NCBI GenBank assembly: GCA_017449495.1
Contig: JAFTFO010000015.1
Span: forward strand, 1 to 64,000
Reading direction: 5' to 3'
DNA: 64,000 bases
DNA from: Prevotella sp.
GTDB lineage: Bacteria; Bacteroidota; Bacteroidia; Bacteroidales; Bacteroidaceae
A model generated the notes under the pieces. The model was not told where the DNA came from. It worked only from the letters and a program-made list of their open reading frames with translations, and made no database searches. The stretch's first letter is position 1; every line of letters begins with the position of its first letter. The translations under genes were made by a program, and so were the position numbers. Of the stretch, positions 4,089 through 38,629 are shown piece by piece.

Positions 4089-5054
4089 CTATATCAACAC
4101 TGATGTCCTATGAGAACACAGCTCATACTCATATCTATCATAGCACACAGCACGCCCTCCAAACCCTAATTTCTGGAATATCAGAGACGAAATGATTTCG
4201 TTACTATCCGCCTCTGCCGACGTCCCGAAATCAAAATATGGGCAATTGAAGTCGGCCTTATTCAGTAGATAGTCAAACAACAAGTCCAGCGCACCCGTTT
4301 TCTTTCCTTCCTGGGATGCCGAGATGTACTGGGTATGAACCACTTGAGGTGTCAGATAAAGCACCGTACCCCCTAATGGCTCTTGTCCCTTGTAGCACAT
4401 ATACAGCTTAATGTGCTCAGGGAACCGGTCCTTCAGCAATCTCATTTCAGCAGCTGTGTGAACAGGCTTAGCCTCATACTTCAGCTGTAGATTCTCCTGC
4501 AGAATCTCCCAGAAAGCCTCTACATCGTTACTCTCCCTGACCTCATAGCCACAGCGCAGGGCTTTTCGAACCCCCGACATACGAGACTCTGCGAATTTGA
4601 TCCGATGACTGAGGATTACCGTAGAAGACACATCACGGTCCACCAACAGGGCATGGCAGCGAACAAAAAGGGCATAGATATCCTCGTCGGCTGGCATCTG
4701 ATGGTATATCCAGGGCATGGGCTTATAGAACACTTTTCGAAAGCCTTCTGCCCGCAGCGCCTCATTTACTGCTTCAAAAGTACTGCACAACGTCTCGGCA
4801 GTAGCCTTTTCGTCCGTGATAAAGCCACCATAGGTCAGTCCCTCATGAGAGTAAATGACCCCATCCCGCTGATTACAGGGAAGCAGGGCGAACAAGCGAT
4901 TCTTACGATACACCATCAGCGAATGGTCCTCAAAGCGGTCGCTATGGTAGTCCATATAGCGTCGGTCAAAGAGGAATGTGCCGTTCTTCGACCGTGCCAC
5001 GAAGTCATTCCATTCGTCTGCCTTGTCTGGTGTGTATCGTACAATCTCAAACAT
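4089..5054 (-). CDS. GNAT / FemAB-like acyltransferase
   Basis: A 321-residue protein with the fold signature of FemAB/BioF2-like GNAT enzymes: N-terminal EWNDFVARSKNGTFLF (typical start of this group), and a C-terminal acyl-donor region with PLGGTVLYL and FDFGTSAE. These enzymes move an acyl or aminoacyl group to an amino sugar, peptidoglycan precursor or similar amine. It is the last gene of an eight-gene operon, 64 nt after the O-acyltransferase gene. With rfbB upstream, decoration of a deoxysugar glycan is plausible, but the substrate is inferred only from context. Confidence 0.7.
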   Translation of the reverse strand: MFEIVRYTPDKADEWNDFVARSKNGTFLFDRRYMDYHSDRFEDHSLMVYRKNRLFALLPCNQRDGVIYSHEGLTYGGFITDEKATAETLCSTFEAVNEALRAEGFRKVFYKPMPWIYHQMPADEDIYALFVRCHALLVDRDVSSTVILSHRIKFAESRMSGVRKALRCGYEVRESNDVEAFWEILQENLQLKYEAKPVHTAAEMRLLKDRFPEHIKLYMCYKGQEPLGGTVLYLTPQVVHTQYISASQEGKKTGALDLLFDYLLNKADFNCPYFDFGTSAEADSNEIISSLIFQKLGFGGRAVCYDRYEYELCSHRTSVLI

Positions 5055-25340: not shown

Positions 25341-26984
25341 ATGCTTCAAAACCTATTCTTAGACATTGATGCCGGGACCATCGACTGGTCGAGGGCGCAG
25401 TTTGCTCTCACGGCAATCTATCACTGGCTCTTTGTACCGTTGACCCTCGGACTGGCGGTCATCATGGGCATCATCGAGACCAAGTTCTACCGCACTCGCG
25501 CCCCTTTCTGGCGCGACGCAGCGAAATTTTGGCAGAAGCTCTTCGGCATCAACTTCGCCATGGGTGTAGCCACAGGCATCATCCTCGAGTTCGAGTTTGG
25601 CACCAACTGGTCGAACTACTCCTGGTTCGTGGGCGACATCTTCGGAGCACCGTTGGCTGTCGAGGGCATCGTGGCCTTCTTTATGGAGTCGACCTTCGTG
25701 GCCGTCATGTACTTCGGATGGAAGAAGGTATCGCCTGGCTTCCACCTTGCTTCTACGTGGCTGACGGGCTTAGGTGCCACCATCTCCGCCTGGTGGATCC
25801 TTGTGGCCAACGCCTGGATGCAGTATCCCGTGGGCTGTGAGTTCAACCCTGACACAATGCGCAACGAGATGGTCTCCTTCTTCGACGTGGCCCTATCGCC
25901 ATTTGCCGTCTCCAAGTTCTGCCACACCGTCACCTCGGCCTGGATCATCGGTGCCATCTTCTGCGTCGGCGTGTGCAGTTGGTATCTCATGAAGAAGCGC
26001 GAGACGAAGCTCGCCACCGAGAGCATGAAGATCGGTGCCGTTGTAGGTCTCGTGGCCACATTGCTGGCTGCTATCACCGGCCACAAGTCGGGTATGGACG
26101 TGGCTGAGGTGCAGCCCATAAAACTCGCTGCAATGGAGGCCCTCTACAACGGTGGCACGGAACAGGGATTGACGGCCGTCGCCTGGGTGAATCCCTTCTG
26201 CCAGCCTGACTACGCCAACGAGGAGTCTGCCCCGCTGAAGATTGAGATGCCCTATGCCCTGTCGATCATGGCCACCAACGATCCTCACGGCTATGTGCCT
26301 GGCATCAACGACATCCTGAACGGTTACACCCGTCCCGACGGCACCGTGGAGCCTTCTGCCGACGAGAAGATTGAGCGCGGCAAACAGGCCATCGCAGCCC
26401 TCGCCGCCTACCGTAAGGCAAGGGCTGAAGGTGCTCCTGACTCAATTGTCAATGCTCAATTGTCAATTCTCAACTCAAACATGAAGTATTTTGGTTATGG
26501 CTACATCCGCGACAAGTCGGAGTTGGTGCCGTTTATACCAGTCAACTTCTGGGCCTTCCGCATCATGGTGGGTCTCGGATGCCTATTCATCCTCTTCTTT
26601 GCCATCATTGTGATTCTGTCGTATAAGATACCCTACGTGTCCATCATCACCCGCCGCCTGCTGGCCACCATCGGCATCCTGCCAGAGACCCATGCCGACA
26701 TGAACGGCATCACAGGACTGCCTGCCTGGCACTACTGGCTGGCCATCGCCCTCATCCCGTTGGCTTATATCGCTTCGGAGAGCGGCTGGCTCGTGGCAGA
26801 GTTCGGCCGTCAGCCATGGACTATTCAGGACATGCTGCCCACTTGGGCTGCCGTCAGCGACCTCCACTCGTCAAGCGTGATGATTACTTTCTTCCTGTTC
26901 CTCATCCTCTTCACCACCATGCTGGCTGTAGAAATCAGCATCCTGCTCAAGCAGATCAAGAAAGGACCGGAATACGAGGGATAA
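25341..26984 (+). CDS. cydA: Cytochrome bd ubiquinol oxidase subunit I
   Basis: A 547-residue CydA, the quinol-oxidising and haem-bearing subunit of the high-affinity terminal oxidase. Seen: haem ligand His28 in AIYHWLFVP, the GIILEFEFGTNWSNYS block, the second ligand region SKFCHTVTSAW, the quinol-loop region, and GRQPWTIQDMLPT near the C-terminus. An in-frame caattgtcaatgctcaattg-type repeat at 26442-26476 encodes SIVNAQLSILNSN, in the Q-loop region, just before the segment preceding the haem-ligand Met helix. Confidence 0.95.
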   Translation: MLQNLFLDIDAGTIDWSRAQFALTAIYHWLFVPLTLGLAVIMGIIETKFYRTRAPFWRDAAKFWQKLFGINFAMGVATGIILEFEFGTNWSNYSWFVGDIFGAPLAVEGIVAFFMESTFVAVMYFGWKKVSPGFHLASTWLTGLGATISAWWILVANAWMQYPVGCEFNPDTMRNEMVSFFDVALSPFAVSKFCHTVTSAWIIGAIFCVGVCSWYLMKKRETKLATESMKIGAVVGLVATLLAAITGHKSGMDVAEVQPIKLAAMEALYNGGTEQGLTAVAWVNPFCQPDYANEESAPLKIEMPYALSIMATNDPHGYVPGINDILNGYTRPDGTVEPSADEKIERGKQAIAALAAYRKARAEGAPDSIVNAQLSILNSNMKYFGYGYIRDKSELVPFIPVNFWAFRIMVGLGCLFILFFAIIVILSYKIPYVSIITRRLLATIGILPETHADMNGITGLPAWHYWLAIALIPLAYIASESGWLVAEFGRQPWTIQDMLPTWAAVSDLHSSSVMITFFLFLILFTTMLAVEISILLKQIKKGPEYEG

Positions 26985-27013
26985 TAGAAATGAAAGAATG
27001 AAAAAATGAAAAA

Positions 27014-28168
27014 ATGAAAGTTATGACATACGAATTTTTGCAGCATTACTGGTGCTTCATCGTAGCACTGTTAGGGGCCCTGTTGGTGTTTTTGCTCTTC
27101 GTGCAGGGAGCCAACTCCGTGGCCAGCAGCCTCGGCTATACGGAAGAGGGCAAGCGTCTTGTATACAACTCCACTGGCCGTAAGTGGGAGTTTACCTTTA
27201 CCACGCTCGTCACCTTCGGCGGCGCCTTCTTCGCCTCCTATCCCCTCTTCTACTCAACGAGTTTCGGCGGAGCCTACTGGCTCTGGATGATCATCCTGTT
27301 CACCTTTGTGCTCCAGGCCGTCAGCTATGAGTTCCAGAACAAGATAGGAAATTTCCTCGGGCCGAAGACCTTCCAGTTCTTCCTCACCCTCAACGGCATC
27401 ATCGGCCCGCTGCTCTTAGGCGGTGCCGTCGCCACCTTCTTCGAGGGCTCGAACTTCATCGTCGAGAAGAACAACCTGATCGACCCGACGGCCCTCACAC
27501 CCGTCATCTCGCGCTGGGCCAATGCCAGCCACGGCCTCGACGCCCTGCTCAATCCCTGGGTGCTCGTCTTTGGACTGGCTGTCGTGTTCTTAGCCCGCAT
27601 CTTGGGTATCCTCTACGTGATGAACAACGTCGACGACGAGGATATCCGTTCGCGAGGCTCCGTCCGTCTGATAGGTGCAGCCGTGCCCTTCCTCATCCTC
27701 TTCGTGGCTTACCTTGTCCACCTGCTGGTGAAAGACGGCTTTGCCTACAACGACGAAGGTTTCATCTATATGGAGCCATATAAGTACTTCAACAACTTCA
27801 TCGACATGTGGTATCTCCTTATTATATTATTAATAGGTGTAGTGCTCGTGCTCTTCGGCATCGGCAAGACCATCGTGTCGAAGGACTATATCGGCGGCAT
27901 CTGGCCTGCCGGCATCGGCACCGTGCTCACCGTCCTGGCCCTGCTGCTCTGCTCCGCCTGGAACCACACGGCCTACTATCCCTCGACCGCCGACCTCCAG
28001 TCGTCGCTGACGATGGTCAACTCCTGCTCGAGTGAGTTCACCCTGCGCACCATGTTCTACGTTTCGCTACTCGTACCTTTCGTACTGGCTTACATCGTCT
28101 ATGCCTGGCGCGCCATCGACTCGAAGAAAATCACGAAAGAGGAAATCCAAAACGACCACGCTTATTGA
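27014..28168 (+). CDS. cydB: Cytochrome bd ubiquinol oxidase subunit II
   Basis: A 384-residue CydB with about eight to nine membrane helices (LQHYWCFIVALLGALLVFLLF at the N-terminus; AWNHTAYYPSTADLQSSLT near the end). It pairs with CydA in oxygen reduction to water. The 5' end lies in a tgaaaaaatgaaaaaatg repeat, so the start could be 27014 or, more in line with homologues (MTYEFLQHYW), 27023. It is followed 1 nt later by deoD. Confidence 0.94.
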   Translation: MKVMTYEFLQHYWCFIVALLGALLVFLLFVQGANSVASSLGYTEEGKRLVYNSTGRKWEFTFTTLVTFGGAFFASYPLFYSTSFGGAYWLWMIILFTFVLQAVSYEFQNKIGNFLGPKTFQFFLTLNGIIGPLLLGGAVATFFEGSNFIVEKNNLIDPTALTPVISRWANASHGLDALLNPWVLVFGLAVVFLARILGILYVMNNVDDEDIRSRGSVRLIGAAVPFLILFVAYLVHLLVKDGFAYNDEGFIYMEPYKYFNNFIDMWYLLIILLIGVVLVLFGIGKTIVSKDYIGGIWPAGIGTVLTVLALLLCSAWNHTAYYPSTADLQSSLTMVNSCSSEFTLRTMFYVSLLVPFVLAYIVYAWRAIDSKKITKEEIQNDHAY

Positions 28169-28883: not shown

Positions 28884-28988
28884 CACCTGAAACGCACAAA
28901 AGCGCCTCTCGGAGTCCTCACAATAGACTCCTTAAGAAAATAATTCCCGAAATGCTTGCACGTTTCGGGATTTATGTGTATCTTTGCA
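28852..28988 (+). repeat. 137-bp direct repeat, copy 1 (deoD 3' end + terminator + promoter)
   Basis: Begins in the deoD C-terminus (ACATGATGGACGTCGCC), crosses the stop, a 9-bp hairpin TTCCCGAAA...TTTCGGGA (28944-28969) and ends with a TATCTTTG -7 element at 28979-28986. By eye about 92% identical to 30214-30350. Confidence 0.9.
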
Positions 28989-29070: not shown

Positions 29071-30210
29071 ATGTACAAGAGAATATTTGATATTGAGGGC
29101 AAGTTAGATGAAGGAATGTTCTTGTTTGGTGCACGCCAGACGGGAAAATCAACTCTTTTGAAAGAGCGATTCAAAGGGGCGATTTATTATGATTTGCTCA
29201 ATCCAAATGTAAGAAGAGCCTTTAAGTTGAACCCCAACTCCCTTTGGGAAGCCCTTCAGGACAAACCTGTCGGAACGCTTGTTATAGTGGATGAAATCCA
29301 GAAAGTTCCTGAACTATTGGATGTGGTACATTCCCTGATGGTAGACAGAGGTCTGTTCTTCATCCTCAGTGGTTCCAGTTCAAGAAAACTTAAGAAATCT
29401 GGGGCCAACACGCTTGGGGGACGTGCCATACCAGAAACGCTTTATCCTCTCGTCTGGCCGGAGGTGACAGACTTTCAGATAGACAAGGCTGTACAGAATG
29501 GCATGATACCCCGTCATTATTTGGTGGAAGATGCCACCAAGCGACTTTCTGGCTATGTAAAGGTGTATTTAGACGAAGAAATCAGAGAAGAAGGCGAAGT
29601 GAGGGAACTCGATGCGTTTGAACGTTTTATGGAGGTAGCTGCTATTTCCGACGGTGAAATGCTGAACTATGCCAACATTGCCTCAGACTGCGGCGTATCT
29701 GCAAAAACGGTCAAGTCGTACTTCCAGATCCTTTACGACACGCTCATCGGTTATGAGATCCCTGCGTTCAGGAAAGAAATCAAGCGAAAGATAGTCCAAG
29801 CTCCCAGATTCTACTATTTTGATGTCGGACTTGCGAACTATCTTATGGGCCGTCATTCCCTAAAACGGGGTACTGATGATTACGGGCATGCCTTTGAGCA
29901 CTTTGTGATGCAGGAAATCATTGCTTACAAAGGCTACAACGACAAGCGAGATGTTGTTTCTTATTGGCACACGTATGACAAGAAAGAAGTTGATGCCATT
30001 ATTGGAGACGCGAAAGTGGCTATCGAGATTAAATCGACAGAGCATGTAGAGACTAAGCATAAGAAAGGTCTCAAGGCTTTCAAGGAGGAGCATCCTGACT
30101 GTCGCCTGATTCTCGTTTCTCTTGACCCGATAACTCGCAAATCCGATGACAAAGAACTCATCTATGTCTTGGACTTTTTAAAGATGCTATGGAGCGGTGA
30201 AATATTCTAA
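29071..30210 (+). CDS. AAA ATPase with DUF4143 (AAA_14) and nuclease-like C-terminus
   Basis: A 379-residue protein of a widespread archaeal/bacterial accessory family. Walker A GARQTGKST near residue 22, Walker B TLVIVDEIQK near residue 75, sensor segment FILSGSSSRKL, then a winged-helix part (ISDGEMLNYANIASDCGVSAKTVKSY) and the DUF4143 region, where EVDAIIGDAKVAIEIKST has the D...ExK pattern of a PD-(D/E)XK fold. No function is established for most members. The gene is AT-richer than its neighbours and bracketed by duplicated deoD-end DNA. Confidence 0.88.
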   Translation: MYKRIFDIEGKLDEGMFLFGARQTGKSTLLKERFKGAIYYDLLNPNVRRAFKLNPNSLWEALQDKPVGTLVIVDEIQKVPELLDVVHSLMVDRGLFFILSGSSSRKLKKSGANTLGGRAIPETLYPLVWPEVTDFQIDKAVQNGMIPRHYLVEDATKRLSGYVKVYLDEEIREEGEVRELDAFERFMEVAAISDGEMLNYANIASDCGVSAKTVKSYFQILYDTLIGYEIPAFRKEIKRKIVQAPRFYYFDVGLANYLMGRHSLKRGTDDYGHAFEHFVMQEIIAYKGYNDKRDVVSYWHTYDKKEVDAIIGDAKVAIEIKSTEHVETKHKKGLKAFKEEHPDCRLILVSLDPITRKSDDKELIYVLDFLKMLWSGEIF

Positions 30211-30213
30211 TTG

Positions 30214-30350
30214 ACATGATGGATGTCGCCTTCTCGCTGCTGTAGCACCTGAAATGCACAAAAGCGCCTCTCAAAGTCCTCACAATAGACTCTTGAGAAA
30301 ATAATTCCCGAAATGCTTGCACGTTTCGGGAATTTGTCGTATCTTTGCAC
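30214..30350 (+). repeat. 137-bp direct repeat, copy 2 (deoD-end remnant)
   Basis: Duplicate of 28852-28988. It still encodes MMDVAFSLL and the deoD stop codon although no deoD precedes it. The hairpin and TATCTTTG element (30339-30346) are kept and now sit before the Rpn-like frame at 30355. Confidence 0.9.
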
Positions 30351-30354
30351 CATT

Positions 30355-30681
30355 ATGAAATCAGACCGTAACATCAACCACAACTCTGACTTCGGTTTCA
30401 AGGAACCGTTTGAGCAGGCGGAGATAGCTCGCTACTCTGATTCAGAGCGTCGTCAGTATTATGAGAGCCAGAAGGAGTATTGTGACTATTACAGTACGAT
30501 GACGACCTCCTATAACAAAGGTCATGCAGAGGGACATGCAGAAGGTCTGGCAGAAGGTCGTTTAGAAGGTATCAATGAGGCTAATCGTGAGAATGCCCGA
30601 AGAATGAAAGCCGACGGGATGACTGTGGAGCAAGTGGCAAAATATACCAACTTATCAATCAAAGAAATTGAGAAGCTGTAG
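30355..30681 (+). pseudogene. Internally deleted Rpn/PDDEXK_2-type recombination-promoting nuclease
   Basis: A 108-residue frame. It opens with HNSDFGFKEPFEQAEIARYSDSERRQYY: the SDFGFK start typical of Rpn/PDDEXK_2 nucleases is joined directly to the family's C-terminal region (FEQAEIA...YYES), then a GHAEGHAEGLAEGRLEG coiled tail and a helix-turn-helix-like end. The catalytic core of about 200 residues is missing, so I read it as a deletion remnant kept in frame; a short functional regulator cannot be excluded. The ATG at 30355 is 8 nt after the duplicated -7 element. Confidence 0.6.
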
Positions 30682-30711
30682 CCGACATTAACATTCCAAT
30701 TTTACTTACTT

Positions 30712-30764
30712 TATAAAATAATTCCCGAAATGCTTGCACGTTTCGGGAATTTGTCGTATCTTTG
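30712..30764 (+). promoter_or_regulatory. Third copy of the hairpin-promoter module
   Basis: AAAATAATTCCCGAAATGC-type hairpin (30722-30749) followed by TATCTTTG at 30757-30764. It matches the second half of the 137-bp repeats almost exactly. It terminates the Rpn frame and starts transcription into the structured region downstream. Confidence 0.75.
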
Positions 30765-30770
30765 CAGCAT

Positions 30771-31068
30771 CGCTTGTTAGCCCTCAGGGGTGAAAGCGGG
30801 CGGTCTTATATATGAGAAAGACGTTTTCGGACGTCTGTCGTTGTGCATAACGAACTTCGCAAACTCGACACCACAGCAGACAGATGACAACGAGGCGTCT
30901 ACGTGGGGCGTTTCTATATACCTTATTAATATATAGTTCGTTCTGGCGTGGGCTAACTGCGTTGTCTATCCTGTGTGGTGGGGCAATGCGAAGGCCTGTT
31001 ATGCCAGGATGGGCAGAGAAACAGACACCTACGCCTTTTTTGTATCATAAGCTAACAATAACTTTTTG
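30771..31068 (+). ncRNA. Candidate structured RNA or long 5' leader of the BspA-like gene
   Basis: No convincing gene lies in this stretch, but it is rich in pairing. A long-range closing helix joins TTGTTAGC (30774-30781) to GCTAACAA (31051-31058). Inside are AGACGT/ACGTCT (30819-30824 with 30831-30836, UUUCGG loop), TCGTT/AACGA (30838-30842 with 30849-30853), CTATATA/TATATAG (30914-30920 with 30930-30936), and a nested set GGCGTGGG/CCTACGCC (30945-30952 with 31028-31035), TGTCT/AGACA (30963-30967 with 31023-31027) and ATCCTG/CAGGAT (30968-30973 with 31005-31010). T-runs follow at 31036-31041 and 31063-31067. A promoter lies directly upstream. I see no match to tmRNA, RNase P, 6S, SRP or common riboswitch cores. 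The gene at 31139 begins 70 nt further on. Confidence 0.5.
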
Positions 31069-31138
31069 ATAAACGGCTGTCTTGGGGGTGTTGGTCAGCA
31101 AAAAGGAAAGTGACAATTAACTTCTAAAAAACAAGCTT

Positions 31139-32734
31139 ATGAAAAGTAGCAAACTATTATTGCTGATTTTAACGATGCTGACTATGGCTGTCAGCGCGAG
31201 TGCCGACGATTTCTTCACAGAAGAAGGAATCCAATATTATTACTTAGATGGTAATAACGTGGAAATAGGTCTCGTGACCAGTGACTCAAAGTATGGACTT
31301 TACACCCCAGCAGATTTTGTGATACCTGAAAAGGTGACCCATGGCGGTGTTGAATACACTGTAACGAGGGTTGGCGAAAGGTTGTTGACAAGTTGGAGAT
31401 ATCTCACATCGATTACTATCCCCAAGACGATCACGTATATAGGCCATAATGCCTTCTTGGGGTGCGAAAATGCTGTTTTCATATCCGAGATAGAGGATCC
31501 ATTTGAAATAGAAGAGAGTGTTTTTTTATACTGCTATAATAATCCTCTCTATGTTCCATACGGCACCAAGGCGAAATATCAGTCAACGCTTTGTTGGAGT
31601 TATTTTACGAATATCATTGACCCCGCTGAGTCAGAAGAGCCCGTGACGGTCACAGCCAATAATTATGCCATTGAGTATGGTGACCCACTACCAGCATTTG
31701 AATATACTACAGAAGGGGCTGAGTTAAAAGGTTCACCCAGCATTTATTGTGACGCTACAGAAGCCTCTCCTGTAGGCACCTATACGATTAAGGTGGAAAA
31801 AGGCAGTGTGACTAATAATAAGGTAACCTTTGTGGATGGTACACTGACTATCACTAAAGCCCCGCTGACAATTACAGCAGGCAATTATACAAAAAAACAG
31901 GGAGAAGACAATCCCGAGTTTGCTCTAACCTACGCTGGCTTTAAGAACAATGAGACAGAAACTGTGTTGACGAAGCAACCGATAGTGGCTTGTTCTGCCA
32001 CGAAAGACTCACCCGCAGGCGATTATGAGGTAATGGTTTCCGATGCAGAAGCAGAAAACTATGAGATTACCTACGTGTCCGGTAATCTGACTATTGAGGA
32101 AGTTGAAGTTGTTGATAATCCTGACAATCCGGGTGATGCAGATGAGGAGGGCTTCTTCTTTGAAGAGGGCATCCGATATGACAAGCTGGGGAATCACAAT
32201 GTGGAGATCACACTTATTACTGATGAATCGAAATATGGATCGACAGTTTATACCGAAGGGGATTTCGTGATACCTGAGAAAGTGACTCACGACGGTGTAG
32301 AATACACCATAACCAGAGTGGGAGAAAGGCTTTTAACAAGTTGGGCTTATCTTACCTCACTGACCATCCCCCAAACCATCACCCATATCGGACATAATGC
32401 CTTCTTGGGCTGTTCAGGCTTAACGGCAGTTTATGTTTATACCACAGACCCCTGCATACTAGGTTCATCTGCTGATGATGTCTCGTCGGTATTCATGCAC
32501 GTAGATAAAGAAAACTGCGCACTTTATGTTCCAAAAGACTGTATTGAAAAGTATCGTGCAGCGGAGGGCTGGAAGGATTTCTTAAACATCGTGGAGTTGG
32601 AAGACACGGGGATTGAGTCCGTCCAAAAGACATCAGCCCAGCCCTCTGCCGTCTATAATCTGAATGGCCAGCGTGTGGTAAAAAAAGCCAAGGGCGTATA
32701 TATCATTAATGGGAAGAAGGTTTTTGTGAAGTGA
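31139..32734 (+). CDS. Secreted BspA-like protein with LRR and MBG-type domains
   Basis: A 531-residue protein with signal peptide (LLLLILTMLTMAVSASA). Domain order: a short LRR_5 block (VTHGGVEYTVTRVGERLL, TSITIPKTITYIGHNAF), two MBG-like Ig-type repeats (VTVTANNYAIEYGD; LTITAGNYTKKQGED), then a second copy of the first LRR block (VTHDGVEYTITRVGERLL) and a C-terminal GQRVVKKAKGVYIINGKK module of the kind found on exported Prevotella proteins, possibly a T9SS signal. Likely surface adhesin. It follows the candidate structured RNA. Confidence 0.83.
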   Translation: MKSSKLLLLILTMLTMAVSASADDFFTEEGIQYYYLDGNNVEIGLVTSDSKYGLYTPADFVIPEKVTHGGVEYTVTRVGERLLTSWRYLTSITIPKTITYIGHNAFLGCENAVFISEIEDPFEIEESVFLYCYNNPLYVPYGTKAKYQSTLCWSYFTNIIDPAESEEPVTVTANNYAIEYGDPLPAFEYTTEGAELKGSPSIYCDATEASPVGTYTIKVEKGSVTNNKVTFVDGTLTITKAPLTITAGNYTKKQGEDNPEFALTYAGFKNNETETVLTKQPIVACSATKDSPAGDYEVMVSDAEAENYEITYVSGNLTIEEVEVVDNPDNPGDADEEGFFFEEGIRYDKLGNHNVEITLITDESKYGSTVYTEGDFVIPEKVTHDGVEYTITRVGERLLTSWAYLTSLTIPQTITHIGHNAFLGCSGLTAVYVYTTDPCILGSSADDVSSVFMHVDKENCALYVPKDCIEKYRAAEGWKDFLNIVELEDTGIESVQKTSAQPSAVYNLNGQRVVKKAKGVYIINGKKVFVK

Positions 32735-32777: not shown

Positions 32778-33302
32778 ATGAAACAGAAAAGAATGATCTT
32801 TACCTTATTGACTGTGGCTGCCTTTTGGTGCGTTTCTCCACAGTATGTTTCAGCACGTACTAAGGCTGAAAAGGCAGTAACTCAGGCTAAGTCTGCCAGT
32901 AAGCAATTGGAGTTCATGGGCATCCCTGTGCATCAGTCTAAAAATCAACTTATAGCCCAGTTGAAGACAAAGGGTTTTACGGAGAAAAAGGATGCAAAAG
33001 GAAAGCCGATGCTTTGTGGCACCTATGATGGAAAGGAAGTAAAGGCAAGAGTTTTCACCTATACCATCATGATAGAGGATCTGAAGCACTACACGCTGGC
33101 TCAGGCTAAGACTCGCTTTGAAGCACTACTTACAAAGACGAAGGCAACCTATGGAAATGGAAAGTTCACATCAAACTCCTCCAATTTTAAAGTCTACGAA
33201 ATAAAGTGCCAAGGCGGAACAGTGTCCGTGATGCTCACTAACGAAGATGAAATGCACGGCAAAAGCAACCTTTACGTCGTGGGCATTGGCTTCTATAAGT
33301 AG
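32778..33302 (+). CDS. Secreted protein of unknown function
   Basis: A 174-residue protein with a signal peptide (MIFTLLTVAAFWCVSPQYVSA). The mature part has KQLEFMGIPVHQSKNQLIAQL, suggesting two copies of a small alpha/beta unit, and ends GKSNLYVVGIGFYK. I do not recognise a characterised family; small proteins of this type recur in Bacteroidota exported sets. It lies 43 nt after the LRR/MBG gene and 56 nt before the giant LRR gene and may be co-transcribed. Confidence 0.6.
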   Translation: MKQKRMIFTLLTVAAFWCVSPQYVSARTKAEKAVTQAKSASKQLEFMGIPVHQSKNQLIAQLKTKGFTEKKDAKGKPMLCGTYDGKEVKARVFTYTIMIEDLKHYTLAQAKTRFEALLTKTKATYGNGKFTSNSSNFKVYEIKCQGGTVSVMLTNEDEMHGKSNLYVVGIGFYK

Positions 33303-33358
33303 ATGGTCTCGTTACAATAACATTGATAACATGAGACAATAGTTAAAATGACATGTTT

Positions 33359-36300
33359 ATGAAACAGAAAATAAATATTTTACTGACTCTGATGCTACTC
33401 TTTTCTGAAAGCGTCAATTGCACCATCATTACTTTTGCTGATGCCAAGGTTAAAGCTATTTGTGTTAGGAAATGGGACATAACTGGTGATGGTGAACTTG
33501 ATACAGGTGAGGCTGCACATGTTACAGCGATTGGTAGTGAATTCACAGGTAACAATGAAATCACAAGTTTTGATGAATTGAAGTATTTCACTGGACTAGA
33601 GATGATTGGCAGAGGGACTTTTAGTGGCTGTAATAATCTTACTTCTGTTGTCATTCCAGAAAATGTGGAATGGATTGGAGATCAGTCGTTTTATTGTAAG
33701 AATCTGAAAAAAATAACCATTCCCAAAAGCGTAAAAAAAATCGAGGAAGGAGCTTTTATATGTGATGATCTTTCTTCTATTCACATCACAGATTTGGCAT
33801 CTTGGTGTGGAATCGATTTTGGGTCATATGGCTTTGGGAATCCTCTTCCTCATGTTAAGCATTTCTACCTGAATGATTCTGAGATTATTGATTTGGTAAT
33901 TCCAGAAGGGGTCCAGAAATTTGGTACAGCTTTTAGGGGGTGTAATACCTTCACTTCTGTGAAAATCCCTAATAGTGTGAATACTATTGAAAACGGTGCC
34001 TTTTCTGGCTGCCAAAACCTGATAAGAGTTGAAATTGGCGATGGTGTTCAGGCTATAGGAGATGAGGCATTTTATAATTGTATTAAACTTCCTTCTGTTA
34101 CAATACCCGGAAATGTGACTAGCATTGGAAGAGAGGCTTTCGCAAAATGTCAAAGTCTGTCACAAGTAAATATTTGCAATGGTGTTCAGATTCTTGGTTA
34201 TGGAGCGTTCAAAGGCTGTATAAACCTTCCCTCTATCGAGTTTCCAAATAGTTTGGAAGTGATAGAACATGAAGCCTTTGAAGGGTGTGAAAAGTTATCA
34301 AAGATTGTATTGGGAAACGGACTAAAGAAGGTAGCGAGAGCATTTCCTCAAAGTTTGACAGAAGTGCATATATCCGATTTAGCCTCCTGGTGTCGAATTA
34401 ATTTTCCAGATGGTGGGGATCCGCTTGCTATAGCTAAACATCTGTATATGGACGGGAAAGAACTAAGGAACGCAGTCATTCCAGATGGAGTGACTTCATT
34501 AGGGACAGGCTTCTCAGAGTGCCTAAGTCTTGTTAGTGTGACCATTCCTAATTCTGTAAAAGAAATCAATGAACATGATTTTGTGCATTGCACTAATCTA
34601 GAATCGGTAAAAATAGGTGATGGAGTTATTTCAATTGGAAAAGGTGCTTTTGGGTATTGTAGTAGTTTGAAAGAAGTGGAATTAGGTTCCGCACTTAAAA
34701 CTATAGGAGAAGAGGCATTTTATCAATGTAGTAATTTGCCGTCAATCGTGATTCCAGATATGGTTGTTACTATTGGAAGATGTGCTTTTGAAAATTGTTA
34801 TTCATTGACTGAGGTTTCATTGGGTAAAAGGGTGAAGAATATTAAAGAAGACGCATTTCGTGCGATTAGTAAAACTGCAGAGATTATTATATCCGATTTA
34901 GCTGCGTGGTGTAATACTAATATAGAAAAATACGAGACAAATCTTCAGTATTATGCAAGGCGAATGTTTTTTAATGGTGAGGAGATAAAGAATCTGATAA
35001 TCCCCAATACCGTGAAAGATTTTGGAACAGCCTTTGTATTTTGTAAAAGTATTGAGTCAGTAAAAATCCCAATAAGTGTGGAGACCATTAGCGATTATGC
35101 TTTCCGAGACTGTGTTAATCTATATAAAATAGAGATTGGAGATGGAGTAAAGAGTATTGGCGATGGCTCTTTTTTAAATTGTGTGAAGTTATCAGAGGTT
35201 CACATTGTTGATGTAGCTGCATATTGTAATATAGAATACGCAAATCCAAATTCTCTAATTAATTCACACCCCCTTTACATAGCGAGGCACCTTTTTATGG
35301 ATGGCGAGGAAGTCGAAGACTTGGTTATTCCTAATAGTGTAGCAGGGTTTGGAATGGCTTTTCGCAACTGCTTAAGTTTAAAGGCGGTTGTTATTGGCAA
35401 TAAGGTAAAAGCCATTGAAAAGGATGCATTCAATGGATGTGGTAGTCTGAAAGAGGTGGATTTTGCAGACTATTCTGTTTTAAAAGAAATAAAAGACGAA
35501 GCATTCTCGGGTTGCCCATTAGTAAAGGTCACTCTTCCTTCCACATTACAATCTTTGGGATCTGGTGTTTTTGCTTATTGCGACAAATTATCGGATATTT
35601 ATGCTAATATGGAGTATCCATTTGAGATTCTTGAGAATGTTTTTACTTCCACAACTTATAATAATGCTGTATTGCATGTTATAAGTAATAAAAGTGCCGA
35701 AAAATACAGGGAGACCTTTGCTTGGTCGAAGTTTTTCCATATCGTTAAGATAGGCGATGAGCCAGGTGACGGTGATGGGGGAAAAGAAAGTGATAATTAT
35801 AAAAAAGGCGGTGGTGGTGGAGGCTCCATCACTACCCGCACCTATAATTATGACATTACAGCACAAGGTAAAGGAAATGTAGTGGTTGACAAGAAAGAAG
35901 AGAGTACTGGGGCAGATAAGGGATGGACATCGTCGTTTGGTGGTCTAAACCTGCGTAACGAGCAGAAGATGGTAGAGATTGTTCATTATCCAGACAGTGG
36001 TGTCCCCTTCAAGTTCATACCTGATGCGGGTTATGCGGTAAAGCAAGTTCAATTCTGTCCAGAAAAGGATGGAACGTTGAAGGATGTAACGAACGATATT
36101 GTTTTTGACAGCAGTATCTCTGGTTATACATATAAGGCATTCGATAAGGATACAGGTCCAAAGCTGGTAGTTACTTTTGAGGCAACCACTCCAGATCAGC
36201 CAGCAACATCACATATAGGGGATACCTTTACGGAAGAAGGTACTGAATATGAAATAAAGGCAGACGGTTCTGTGGCAATAAAGAAAGTGAATAACGATGT

Positions 36301-38629
36301 TTCGGGCAGTTACACAATTCCAGAGACAATAACGTATAATGGCTCAGTATATCAAGTAACAAGCATTGGCAATAATGCCTTTGAAGGATGCACAGGCTTG
36401 ACAGCTGTATCTATCCCAGGGAGTGTAAACACCATCGGTGACGATGCCTTTTCAATTTGTGACAACTTGGCATCCATAACAATAGGAGAGGGTGTTAGGA
36501 CCATAGGGAGTCAAGCGTTTTACCAATGTCTGGCCTTAACGACTGTCACTATACCAAGTAGTATAACAGGTATTGGGGAGTACGCTTTTGCAAGATGTAA
36601 TTTGACCTCAGTCATTTCTAATATAGAGACACCTTTTGAAATATCGGATAAAGTATTCTACTATTCTACAACTTATGTAGATGCTATTTTGACGGTGCTC
36701 GCAGGTAAGGTGAGTGCCTATAGGAATACGGCAGGGTGGAAGGAGTTCAAAAACATCAAGGACGTGAACGGTGATACTGGCGAAACAACAAATCCACAGC
36801 CGACAACGCTGAAAGACGGCGATGCGTTTGAGGCGACAGTGGGTGAAACAACATTCACAATAAAGGTGCTTAATGCTTCCGACAAGACCTGTCAGATTGG
36901 TGCAGACAACAGAGGCGATGCCATCGTCTCTGGGGGAAGTAACTGGGATGGCGTTATTCCAAGTAAGGTGAATGGTACCGACAATCAGGAATACACGGTT
37001 ATAGGTATCGGCAACAGGGCTTTCTTCGAAGATGGCGGCATTGTAACCTTGATACTTCCTGAATCCCTCCTGCAAATCTCGGAAGGTGCCTTCATGCGCT
37101 GCGAAAACCTGATGTACGTCACAATTCCGGCAGGCCTGAAGACAGTCGAAGGTTTAGTCTTCAACGGTCAGGAGGTTCTGACGGAGGTGATTTCTCTGAT
37201 AGAGGATCCGCAGACTCTTAACGGTACTCTTGACTTTGGAGGACGAAATGGCAACAATGCGACGCTGATTGTTCCGGCAGGGAAGGTAAGCGCTTATAGG
37301 AATACGCCAGGCTGGGACTCGTTCAAGATTATCAAGGACGTGAACGGCAATACCGATGAACCACAGCCAGAAGAGCCCCAGCCAGAACCACAACCAGAGC
37401 CACAACCAGAAGGATTGAAGGTCGGTGATGCCTTTATCGTATATATTGGCGAGGTAATGAACACATATGTATTGACAAGTGAAAACACCGTCAACTTGAA
37501 TAAGTGGGGCGTGAATGGAAGCAGTAAGGCAGAGATACCGTCGAAGGTCACTTATGAGGACGTTGAATATACAATCACGGGTATTCTGGGAACTGCGACA
37601 GGTAACCCTGAGCAACCCAACATGCCAGTCTTTGGATCTAACGTAACGGAGGTGATCATCCCAAATACTGTGACTTCTATCGGATCCTGTGCCTTCTGGT
37701 ATTGTGAGAACCTGGCCTCTGTATCTATACCCAACTCTGTGACTGTCATTGGTGACAATGCATTCTTAGGCAGCGCTCTGAACTCTGTTACCATACCAGC
37801 CAGCGTGAATACGATTGGCGAATATGCCTTTACCAGTTGTTTTGACCTCTCTAAGGTTGTGGCAGAGGGTGAGACACCAGTAAACATCTCTGGCGCTCCT
37901 CGTTTCAACCTAGACATCCTGCAAACGGCCATCCTTTATGTACCCAGTGGCACAGCGGCTGTCTATCAGAATGCAGGATGGAACTTCACAAATATTGTTG
38001 AGGATGGTGGGACCACTCCGGAGCCGCAGCCAGAACCTGAGAAAGAATTTACTGACAATGGTGCTACTTATACCATCGGAGATGATCATACTGCGACAAT
38101 AGACTTCGTAGATAATCTGTCTGGTAGCTATGAAGTACCAGAAAAGGTTGTATACAACGGTGTGGAATACCAGCTGGTAGGCATCTCAAAGGGTGCTTTT
38201 GAGAACCAGGTGAATCTGACCGAGATTACCATTCCTGGATCCATCGTGTCCATTGGCGAGAATGCTTTTGCAGGATGCGTTAACCTGAAAGCCATCTATA
38301 TCTATGCCGCGGAGCCAGCTAACTTGGCAACGGCAACAGTAAGGACAAGGGCAGAAGCGGCATCCTCAGTGTTCGAGGGCGTCGACAAGGAAACTTGTGT
38401 ACTCTATGTGCCGAAGGGCTGTGTGGAGAGATATCGTGCCGCTGAAGGCTGGGGCGAGTTCACCCATATCGAAGAGATGGATGGTACAGGCATCAGCAGT
38501 CTGACACCTGACAGGAATACGTTTGATGTCTACGATATGAGTGGCCGTAAGGTTCGCACTGCTGCCACATCGCTTGACGGACTGCCAAATAGCATCTACA
38601 TCGTGAACGGAAAGAAGGTGATGAAATAA
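33359..38629 (+). CDS. Giant BspA-like leucine-rich repeat surface protein
   Basis: About 1756 residues. Signal peptide MKQKINILLTLMLLFSESVNC; a calcium-loop-like WDITGDGELDTGEA at about residue 37; a long array of LRR_5 repeats (SIGDEAFYNC-type) with interspersed ISDLASWC units; a GGGGGGS linker near residue 820; an Ig-like part; further LRR blocks separated by EPQPEPQPE-type Pro/Glu linkers; and a C-terminal VYDMSGRKVRTAAT... VNGKKVMK module. Likely an adhesin exported through the Bacteroidota outer-membrane system. The first 3 kb is visibly AT-richer than the last 1.5 kb, suggesting a composite origin. A start at 33353 is the alternative. Confidence 0.85.
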   Translation: MKQKINILLTLMLLFSESVNCTIITFADAKVKAICVRKWDITGDGELDTGEAAHVTAIGSEFTGNNEITSFDELKYFTGLEMIGRGTFSGCNNLTSVVIPENVEWIGDQSFYCKNLKKITIPKSVKKIEEGAFICDDLSSIHITDLASWCGIDFGSYGFGNPLPHVKHFYLNDSEIIDLVIPEGVQKFGTAFRGCNTFTSVKIPNSVNTIENGAFSGCQNLIRVEIGDGVQAIGDEAFYNCIKLPSVTIPGNVTSIGREAFAKCQSLSQVNICNGVQILGYGAFKGCINLPSIEFPNSLEVIEHEAFEGCEKLSKIVLGNGLKKVARAFPQSLTEVHISDLASWCRINFPDGGDPLAIAKHLYMDGKELRNAVIPDGVTSLGTGFSECLSLVSVTIPNSVKEINEHDFVHCTNLESVKIGDGVISIGKGAFGYCSSLKEVELGSALKTIGEEAFYQCSNLPSIVIPDMVVTIGRCAFENCYSLTEVSLGKRVKNIKEDAFRAISKTAEIIISDLAAWCNTNIEKYETNLQYYARRMFFNGEEIKNLIIPNTVKDFGTAFVFCKSIESVKIPISVETISDYAFRDCVNLYKIEIGDGVKSIGDGSFLNCVKLSEVHIVDVAAYCNIEYANPNSLINSHPLYIARHLFMDGEEVEDLVIPNSVAGFGMAFRNCLSLKAVVIGNKVKAIEKDAFNGCGSLKEVDFADYSVLKEIKDEAFSGCPLVKVTLPSTLQSLGSGVFAYCDKLSDIYANMEYPFEILENVFTSTTYNNAVLHVISNKSAEKYRETFAWSKFFHIVKIGDEPGDGDGGKESDNYKKGGGGGGSITTRTYNYDITAQGKGNVVVDKKEESTGADKGWTSSFGGLNLRNEQKMVEIVHYPDSGVPFKFIPDAGYAVKQVQFCPEKDGTLKDVTNDIVFDSSISGYTYKAFDKDTGPKLVVTFEATTPDQPATSHIGDTFTEEGTEYEIKADGSVAIKKVNNDVSGSYTIPETITYNGSVYQVTSIGNNAFEGCTGLTAVSIPGSVNTIGDDAFSICDNLASITIGEGVRTIGSQAFYQCLALTTVTIPSSITGIGEYAFARCNLTSVISNIETPFEISDKVFYYSTTYVDAILTVLAGKVSAYRNTAGWKEFKNIKDVNGDTGETTNPQPTTLKDGDAFEATVGETTFTIKVLNASDKTCQIGADNRGDAIVSGGSNWDGVIPSKVNGTDNQEYTVIGIGNRAFFEDGGIVTLILPESLLQISEGAFMRCENLMYVTIPAGLKTVEGLVFNGQEVLTEVISLIEDPQTLNGTLDFGGRNGNNATLIVPAGKVSAYRNTPGWDSFKIIKDVNGNTDEPQPEEPQPEPQPEPQPEGLKVGDAFIVYIGEVMNTYVLTSENTVNLNKWGVNGSSKAEIPSKVTYEDVEYTITGILGTATGNPEQPNMPVFGSNVTEVIIPNTVTSIGSCAFWYCENLASVSIPNSVTVIGDNAFLGSALNSVTIPASVNTIGEYAFTSCFDLSKVVAEGETPVNISGAPRFNLDILQTAILYVPSGTAAVYQNAGWNFTNIVEDGGTTPEPQPEPEKEFTDNGATYTIGDDHTATIDFVDNLSGSYEVPEKVVYNGVEYQLVGISKGAFENQVNLTEITIPGSIVSIGENAFAGCVNLKAIYIYAAEPANLATATVRTRAEAASSVFEGVDKETCVLYVPKGCVERYRAAEGWGEFTHIEEMDGTGISSLTPDRNTFDVYDMSGRKVRTAATSLDGLPNSIYIVNGKKVMK

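Follow-up and report, generated by a model that had tools for sequence, protein, structure and literature searches.

A large, multi-copy RNA of the Bacteroidales, probably a leader, whose alternative folds may stop or permit transcription

The T-box riboswitch is a long leader that contains both a terminator and an antiterminator, and its covariance model is part of Rfam. The c-di-GMP riboswitches serve a mixed regulon and occur in multiple copies, mixed regulons being a known trait of second-messenger riboswitches, while the put and EAR elements represent processive antitermination RNAs. To our knowledge few regulatory RNAs have been described for the Bacteroidales.

The closest described systems are the transcription-terminating riboswitches and the protein-controlled attenuators (ANTAR antitermination, PMC3369936, being an example), which have the same mutually exclusive antiterminator and terminator within a 5' leader. 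They likewise have a 5' domain that hides the antiterminator strand. Compared with these attenuators, the Bacteroidales leader described below is large, stands before mixed genes and has an extra covarying pairing past its terminator. Structured RNAs of the Bacteroidota are also represented by Bacteroidales-1, Bacteroides-1, Bacteroid-trp and 6S-flavo (Weinberg 2010, excerpts of PMC2864571). Finally, the excerpts of Fremin and Bhatt 2021 (PMC8040213) drawn upon here list 3161 candidates of 27-219 bp, among them HMP2_1881, a 108-bp element found mostly in Bacteroidetes near radical SAM genes and expressed in 13 of the 13 places where it was found.

How does the RNA considered here compare with these systems? 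It lies within a 64,000-nucleotide stretch of a Prevotella sp. contig (JAFTFO010000015.1), the whole of which is termed the window, and its surroundings are arranged as follows.

29071-30210: AAA_14/DUF4143 gene, upstream of the RNA (Pfam).
30722-30749, plus strand: inverted repeat TTCCCGAAA...TTTCGGGAA spanning the -33 region, with TTG at 30734-30736 (sequence).
30757-30764, plus strand: -7 promoter element TATCTTTG (TAnnTTTG), placed alike across the RNAs.
About 30768-31075, plus strand: structured RNA region (folding, and covariation in homologues).
30769-30804, plus strand: predicted 5' hairpin near the presumed transcription start, variable in sequence and length (minimum free energy pairs).
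31036-31041, plus strand: U-run (TTTTTT) of an intrinsic-terminator-like hairpin.
31139-32734, plus strand: first gene of the operon, a BspA-type LRR_5 and MBG_2 protein (Pfam).
32778-33302, plus strand: second gene, 174 aa, with a signal-like N-terminus by eye and no Pfam match.
33353-38629, plus strand: third gene, a 1758-aa BspA-type LRR_5 protein (Pfam).

The 308 nt from 30768 to 31075 fold at -109.9 kcal/mol against a shuffle mean of -85.2 kcal/mol (z -5.39), and none of 100 dinucleotide shuffles folded as well, which bears out the proposal of the initial annotation that the pairing goes beyond chance. What had been taken for a nuclease remnant upstream is actually the AAA_14/DUF4143 gene, followed by a 108-aa ORF without a Pfam match. 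A promoter-like module, CCCGAAA...TTTCGGG around -33 together with TAnnTTTG, recurs at 28931-28988, 30292-30353 and 30709-30770 of the window. These three copies fall inside 1.9 kb, five more lie elsewhere in the genome, the genes that follow three of the copies look unrelated, and the module is possibly the site of a shared regulator. Genes that by eye resemble CydAB are neighbours of the RNA operon in the window (25341-28168, upstream) and again in locus L082 (downstream, opposite strand), which may be coincidence.

As judged from sequence comparison, the stretch is a real structured RNA of roughly 270-300 nt and one of a large family. Within the genus, 120 of 299 genomes searched at the DNA level carry all or part of the RNA, with many matches near full length at roughly 68-91% identity and many others to a more distant type, mainly over query positions 185-287. 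One copy of this distant type is the second in the window's own genome, where it precedes an unrelated gene (G000:C14:45949). R1, a covariance model for the 3' domain, was built from 42 sequences and has 97 model positions. It matches 195 of the 301 genomes sampled from the window's family (23 of 30 genera) and 42 of the 295 sampled from the order (28 of 184 genera), and in a phylum-wide sample it matches one of 247 genomes, namely the window's own. Five genomes searched with looser filters carry 15, 12, 12, 11 and 11 copies. In named GTDB genomes a 15-base core pattern yielded at least 116 stretches, which were then tested with R1. Among the stretches listed, matches occur in Bacteroides clarus (L138), Bacteroides sp. 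51 (L152) and Xylanibacter rarus (L145), and in metagenome-assembled genomes of Alistipes timonensis (L171), Parabacteroides, Paraprevotella, Muribaculaceae, Porphyromonadaceae and Paludibacteraceae. Loci labelled as other phyla, among the 80 named loci listed, gave no R1 match except for contig L162, labelled Firmicutes, which may be mis-binned.

Against Rfam 15 there was no match at the gathering score either in the whole window or in 17 further loci (8 plus 9). At a relaxed E the region 30600-31200 gave 11 hits, all far below gathering, and up to an E of 1 the relative at L145:5350-5980 gave none. A known Rfam RNA is therefore rejected, and the T-box model, as part of Rfam, likewise finds nothing in the window or the 17 relatives. 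The RNAs of Weinberg 2010 that have Rfam models do not match the leader; Bacteroides-2 carries no Rfam number in the excerpts of PMC2864571. The earlier view of a novel structured RNA of no recognised class is thus supported by the lack of an Rfam match.

Could the RNA be an ordinary remnant of a mobile element or of a coding region? Both flanks differ between the loci examined, and two contigs of IMG/VR carry the RNA, as such a remnant might be expected to show. However, the pairing is compensatory, there is no conserved frame, and plasmid and phage records hold no match to the RNA, which together make this reading very hard to credit. The short core pattern picks out 85 stretches of IMG/VR, of which two carry clear copies and two more match weakly (E 0.004 and 0.01). 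The clear ones lie at L293:11427-11522 and L325:1654-1749 (73.4 and 76.8 bits) and may be either prophage cargo or host flank. With no plasmid or phage matches and so few IMG/VR copies, such elements were rejected as the main home of the RNA. A coding region was rejected on a reading-frame test of 40 type-A loci of the genus, where RNA lengths modulo 3 divide into 16, 12 and 12 and a stop-free frame exists in three of the 40; in two of these 40 loci (27 and 28 stops) the promoter call is probably misplaced. The absence of a convincing gene, remarked upon at the outset, accordingly holds across these loci. Two copies may also share a strand at a distance of about 1 kb, as in L130 (2751-2850 and 3955-4054, separated by a gene that by eye is LytTR-like) and in L039 (3152-3377, partial, and 4115-4476).

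The copies examined share one layout, in which a promoter is followed by an RNA of about 240-450 nt, a U-run and, at a median of 70 nt further on, a gene on the same strand. TAnnTTTG occupies the matching place in 184 of 192 family RNAs against 123 of 960 random windows, and the Bacteroidota promoter proposed for the locus, TATCTTTG at 30757-30764, is therefore well founded. From promoter to the end of the U-run the 192 collected RNAs measure 242-450 nt with a median of 306, so that the 270-300 nt first suggested was about right, although a covarying element also lies past the U-run (about 31084-31091). In 209 RNAs chosen without that condition, a hairpin is followed by at least four U in 201 and by at least five in 182, compared with 1013 and 439 of 4000 random windows.

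A same-strand ORF of at least 50 aa with an ATG start begins within 360 nt in 188 of 189 RNAs (median distance 70 nt, interquartile range 56-78). With a limit of 100 aa, the figure is 168 of 183 RNAs against 574 of 960 random positions, and an ORF of at least 100 aa starts 40-100 nt past the U-run in 119 of 183 RNAs but only 134 of 960 random positions. Because the same-strand ORF occurs at a tight spacing and far above random, the RNA is to be seen as a leader and not as a free-standing gene. An attenuator leader should have its own promoter, a same-strand gene behind it and a terminator-like hairpin with a U-run before the start codon, and each of these is found. The initial annotation had offered both a stand-alone RNA and a leader; the ORF in 188 of 189 copies and its 40-100 nt spacing favour the leader or attenuator and disfavour the former. 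A small RNA that acts in trans and terminates at the U-run, its neighbouring gene being there by coincidence, would have just such a promoter element and terminator-like hairpin of its own, yet it should keep no fixed relation to the gene downstream. An ORF begins at 40-100 nt in 119 of 183 copies (134 of 960 at random), and the element past the U-run covaries with a terminator strand, which leaves the small RNA improbable. The RNA is probably a cis-acting 5' leader, riboswitch-like in kind, that acts by transcription attenuation of the downstream operon.

The strands that take part in the pairing of the RNA are these.

30819-30900, plus strand: 5' domain, closed by helix H0 (30819-30825 with 30894-30900; covariation).
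30820-30835, plus strand: alternative local hairpin Ha, GACGU...ACGUC (by eye).
30836-30882, plus strand: hairpin Hb (30836-30845 with 30872-30882; permutation test).
30845-31004, plus strand: antiterminator rod (covariation).
30845-30851, plus strand: seg1, pairing with L3 at 30998-31004.
30855-30861, plus strand: K1, CUUCGCA, pairing with K2, UGCGAAG, at 30987-30993.
30869-30875, plus strand: seg3, pairing with L5 at 30974-30980.
30883-30904, plus strand: antiterminator strand, consisting of X' (30883-30892, complement of X) and Y' (30897-30904, complement of Y).
30945-30970, plus strand: switch strand, made of Y (30945-30953, the 5' arm of the terminator) and X (30960-30970).
30945-31035, plus strand: competing terminator arm (covariation).
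31005-31035, plus strand: terminator 3' strands X'' (31005-31014) and Y'' (31028-31035).
31084-31091, plus strand: post-terminator element Z, GGGGGUGU, complementary to ACACC at 31025-31029 (covariation).

Fundamental to this arrangement is the switch strand, which pairs either upstream with Y'X' or downstream with X''Y''. The pairings were assessed in two ways. In alignment A3, of 92 divergent sequences, the cells that are paired were counted and compared with slid versions and column shuffles, and in an alignment-free test each strand was set against its own and a permuted partner over 145 representatives. For the terminator (Y:Y'' and X:X'') 95.7% of 1577 cells are paired against 41-51% when slid, and 15 of 18 pairs have two-sided changes, in 171 cells. 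Without alignment, X with X'' gives a z of 16.9 and Y with Y'' one of 10.7; in the alignment the two stems have 95.0% and 96.9% of cells paired, each with two-sided changes. The nested arm at 30945-31035 and the TTTTTT that follows it at 31036-31041, both of which had been picked out beforehand, are hence real and conserved.

In the 5' domain H0 has 89.5% of 602 cells paired (31-55% slid) with two-sided changes in five of seven pairs and 50 cells over the 92 sequences. Its permutation z is 9.9, whereas controls pairing its 5' strand with the Hb region and with Y give -2.8 and 1.7. Hb reaches a z of 18.8, none of 3000 permutations in matching windows being as good, and its loop carries the near-invariant AACUUCGCAA. 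Hairpin Ha is unsupported (z -1.0 to 1.2), its 5' strand finding support in H0 instead. The 3' strand of H0 overlaps the antiterminator strand Y', so that, as is looked for in a riboswitch, a structured 5' domain is able to hide or free that strand.

With the rod as a whole (seg1:L3, K1:K2, seg3:L5, X':X and Y':Y) 84.1% of 3234 cells are paired, compared with 36-46% when slid, and 29 of 39 pairs have two-sided changes, amounting to 512 cells in the 92 sequences. For rod, terminator and H0 alike, none of 500 shuffles equals the real alignment in percentage paired, in two-sided cells or in covariation score. Most of the rod's signal, 458 of its 512 two-sided cells, resides in seg1:L3, K1:K2 and seg3:L5, which have no nucleotide in common with the terminator stems. 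Both seg1:L3 and seg3:L5 have two-sided changes in seven of seven pairs, the former with a z of 48 in the alignment-free test and 91.9% of cells paired and the latter with a z of 35 and 65% (MAFFT), while K1:K2 is paired in 99.7% of cells and its first pair has a two-sided change in 24 of the 92 sequences. Wrong-partner controls over 119 representatives gave 0.68, 0.09, -0.87, 0.59 and 0.33, with the exceptions of seg1 with X'' (2.2) and X' with X'' (-4.0). In seg1:L3 and seg3:L5 the own partner was best in 47 of 50 comparisons (25 copies from five genomes, two helices each, the 25 being drawn from 30 chosen loci). A copy-specific code in these two hypervariable helices was considered and dropped, as compensated drift in any stem of diverged paralogues predicts the same. 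The two segments may also permit a homo-dimer, and K1 and K2 might make a kissing contact in the OFF state.

The part of the rod that competes directly with the terminator, X':X and Y':Y, is supported more weakly in these sequences. Of the 512 two-sided cells it accounts for only 54, where slid versions have as many as 46 and 43. On its own it is 80.9% paired, against 35-48% when slid and 79.5 for column shuffles, none of 500 of which reach its value. In narrow windows X' with X gives a z of 4.4 and Y' with Y one of 5.6, the maxima of a scan being 6.5 and 8.5. The z of 16.7 for Y' with Y in a wide window comes from a window that takes in the neighbouring rod helix, and X' with X gave 2.1 in a first window and -2 to -3 in windows set further downstream; in the alignment, two of the eight pairs in the X' helix fail to form in most sequences. 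Columns 358-365 (Y) and 383-389 (X) pair in both rod and terminator, and columns 128, 129, 130 and 132 are common to H0 and Y':Y. Because of these shared columns, the rod cannot coexist with H0 plus terminator. An antiterminator that shares its strand with the terminator and excludes it, the hallmark of an attenuator, is therefore present, albeit with the directly competing part the weaker; exclusion by the remaining rod helices would be steric.

The single fold implied by the initial annotation gives way to these competing structures, since H0, rod and terminator all covary. The perfect 8-bp helix by which it closed that fold (30774-30781 with 31051-31058) can be found in the window sequence, yet across the family its two sides show no covariation (z 0.42), 1040 of 3000 permutations being as good. 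In all, the structured RNA, the promoter and the nested arm stood up to the comparison with homologues, which exist and covary, and with Rfam, plasmid and phage records, which gave no match; the closing helix, the single fold and the nuclease remnant did not.

A further pairing lies beyond the terminator, where Z sits about 45 nt past the U-run and is complementary to the terminator 3' strand Y''. Y'' with Z gives a z of 12.0 with none of 3000 permutations as good, compared with controls of 0.9 for Y with Z and 0.7 for the first 0-25 nt after the U-run. By eye the partners read ACACC/GGUGU in type A and AACUCCC/GGGAGUU in type B. Since Z is made after the termination decision, it can act in read-through RNA only.

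Which of the two states is the default? In full-length minimum free energy folds without pseudoknots Y is paired upstream in 140 of 145 representatives and the terminator stem appears in one of 145, whereas in the 3' domain folded alone the stem forms in 115 of 145. Folding the whole RNA at once is, on average, 11.9 kcal/mol more favourable than folding its 5' and 3' parts separately. As the folding energies favour the rod, the thermodynamic default is read-through, and the OFF state needs kinetics, tertiary contacts, a factor or a signal that holds the 5' domain. Modelled in this way, the switch would read through by default and terminate conditionally.

The family and its layout, and the covariation of H0, Hb, rod, terminator and Y'':Z, can be read from the aligned sequences, and the RNA seems capable of two alternative folds, one halting and the other permitting transcription of the operons behind it. 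Actual termination, the order of events, the direction of the switch and sensing by the core are what we infer, along the following lines. RNA polymerase would start at about 30770, and the nascent RNA would first form the 5' domain, with Hb inside the closing helix H0, which would mask part of Y'. Were H0 to hold, the switch strand Y-X would pair forward with X''Y'' to give the terminator hairpin and its U6 (OFF). Were H0 to open, X'Y' would capture Y-X in a long antiterminator rod, extended through seg3:L5, K1:K2 and seg1:L3, and read-through would follow (ON). A signal read by the 5' domain or by the conserved core (AACUUCGCAA / GGGCAAUGCGAAGGCC) would bias the choice. In the read-through RNA the freed Y'' could bind Z immediately ahead of the start codon; this pairing may stabilise the ON state and keep the terminator open, or it may tune translation.

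The genes that follow the RNA have no one function in common. Of 165 first genes, 150 were analysed (80-900 aa), and 82 Pfam and 93 NCBIfam families are represented among them. BspA-type LRR_5 proteins and Cys-Xaa-Xaa-Xaa repeat radical SAM target proteins are the most frequent, with 11 of 150 each, followed by Ig-like, PEGA, BACON, LytTR, outer-membrane barrel and FHA domains with two or three of the 150 each. First genes of at least 150 aa look exported, by a crude N-terminal test, in 102 of 141 cases against 196 of 510 background ORFs. Precursor-like proteins with ...ELQSRR(E/D)FFK(K/R)AAK... recur behind the RNA (L090, L093, L140, L228, L231, L234 and L237), and in L093 the precursor-like protein is followed by what is by eye a radical SAM-like gene.

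Within the attenuator leader, a tentative but plausible sub-case is an orphan riboswitch in which the 5' domain or core would recognise a small molecule, a global signal or second messenger being the likeliest candidate. Near-invariant residues flank a 7-bp helix, H0 closes the 5' domain and hides the antiterminator strand in the usual riboswitch logic, and up to 15 copies per genome stand before unrelated genes. Set against this, the downstream functions are mixed, so that the association with one pathway that is usual, though not universal, among riboswitches is missing, and the genes offer no family hint beyond the LRR_5 proteins and the radical-SAM target peptides (11 of 150 each). It is about equally likely that a trans-acting RNA-binding regulator reads the core or the Hb loop and so sets termination or antitermination, a possibility that we hold with some reserve. 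Conserved residues occur in the loops of Hb and of the terminator arm, and some copies precede LytTR regulator genes (three of 150 first genes). An RNA that modifies RNA polymerase to pass its own and later terminators in long operons would be indifferent to which genes follow and would suit the very long genes of several operons (for instance 33353-38629 of the window), but here the terminator lies inside the element and shares strands with the antiterminator, simple attenuation explains the arrangement, and such processive antitermination is unlikely.

How much of the leader has been seen before? The 108 bp of HMP2_1881 are close to the 97 positions of the R1 3' domain, and 11 of 150 first genes encode radical-SAM target peptides, a comparison made from the description alone, as excerpted from PMC8040213; the same excerpts mention neither a switch nor a promoter or leader role for the element. 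Our guess, from that description only, is that HMP2_1881 is the 3' domain of the leader RNA. If it matches, the 3' domain has already been listed and seen expressed, in the parts of that paper drawn upon without the leader, the switch or the full RNA. A description of the leader was not found in the literature searched, preprints lying outside the search, which included passages of PMC8632094, PMC2864571, PMC7366714, PMC2965389, PMC11109978 and PMC6429828.

We would tentatively suggest, at something short of even confidence, that the leader belongs to a riboswitch class not described before, large and spread over the order, which brings mixed accessory operons of the Bacteroidales under common control, with the post-terminator pairing as an additional control step. 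These operons would, with the same reserve, encompass BspA-like proteins, outer-membrane proteins, lipoproteins, radical-SAM-modified peptides, LytTR regulators and kinases, and the signal would probably be a global one or a second messenger. The competing, covarying folds give precise mutants for testing. A multi-copy, order-wide switch without an Rfam match, standing ahead of operons for surface proteins and peptides, would establish a new regulon, and the leader would offer a way to ask which signal turns on accessory operons in the Bacteroidales.
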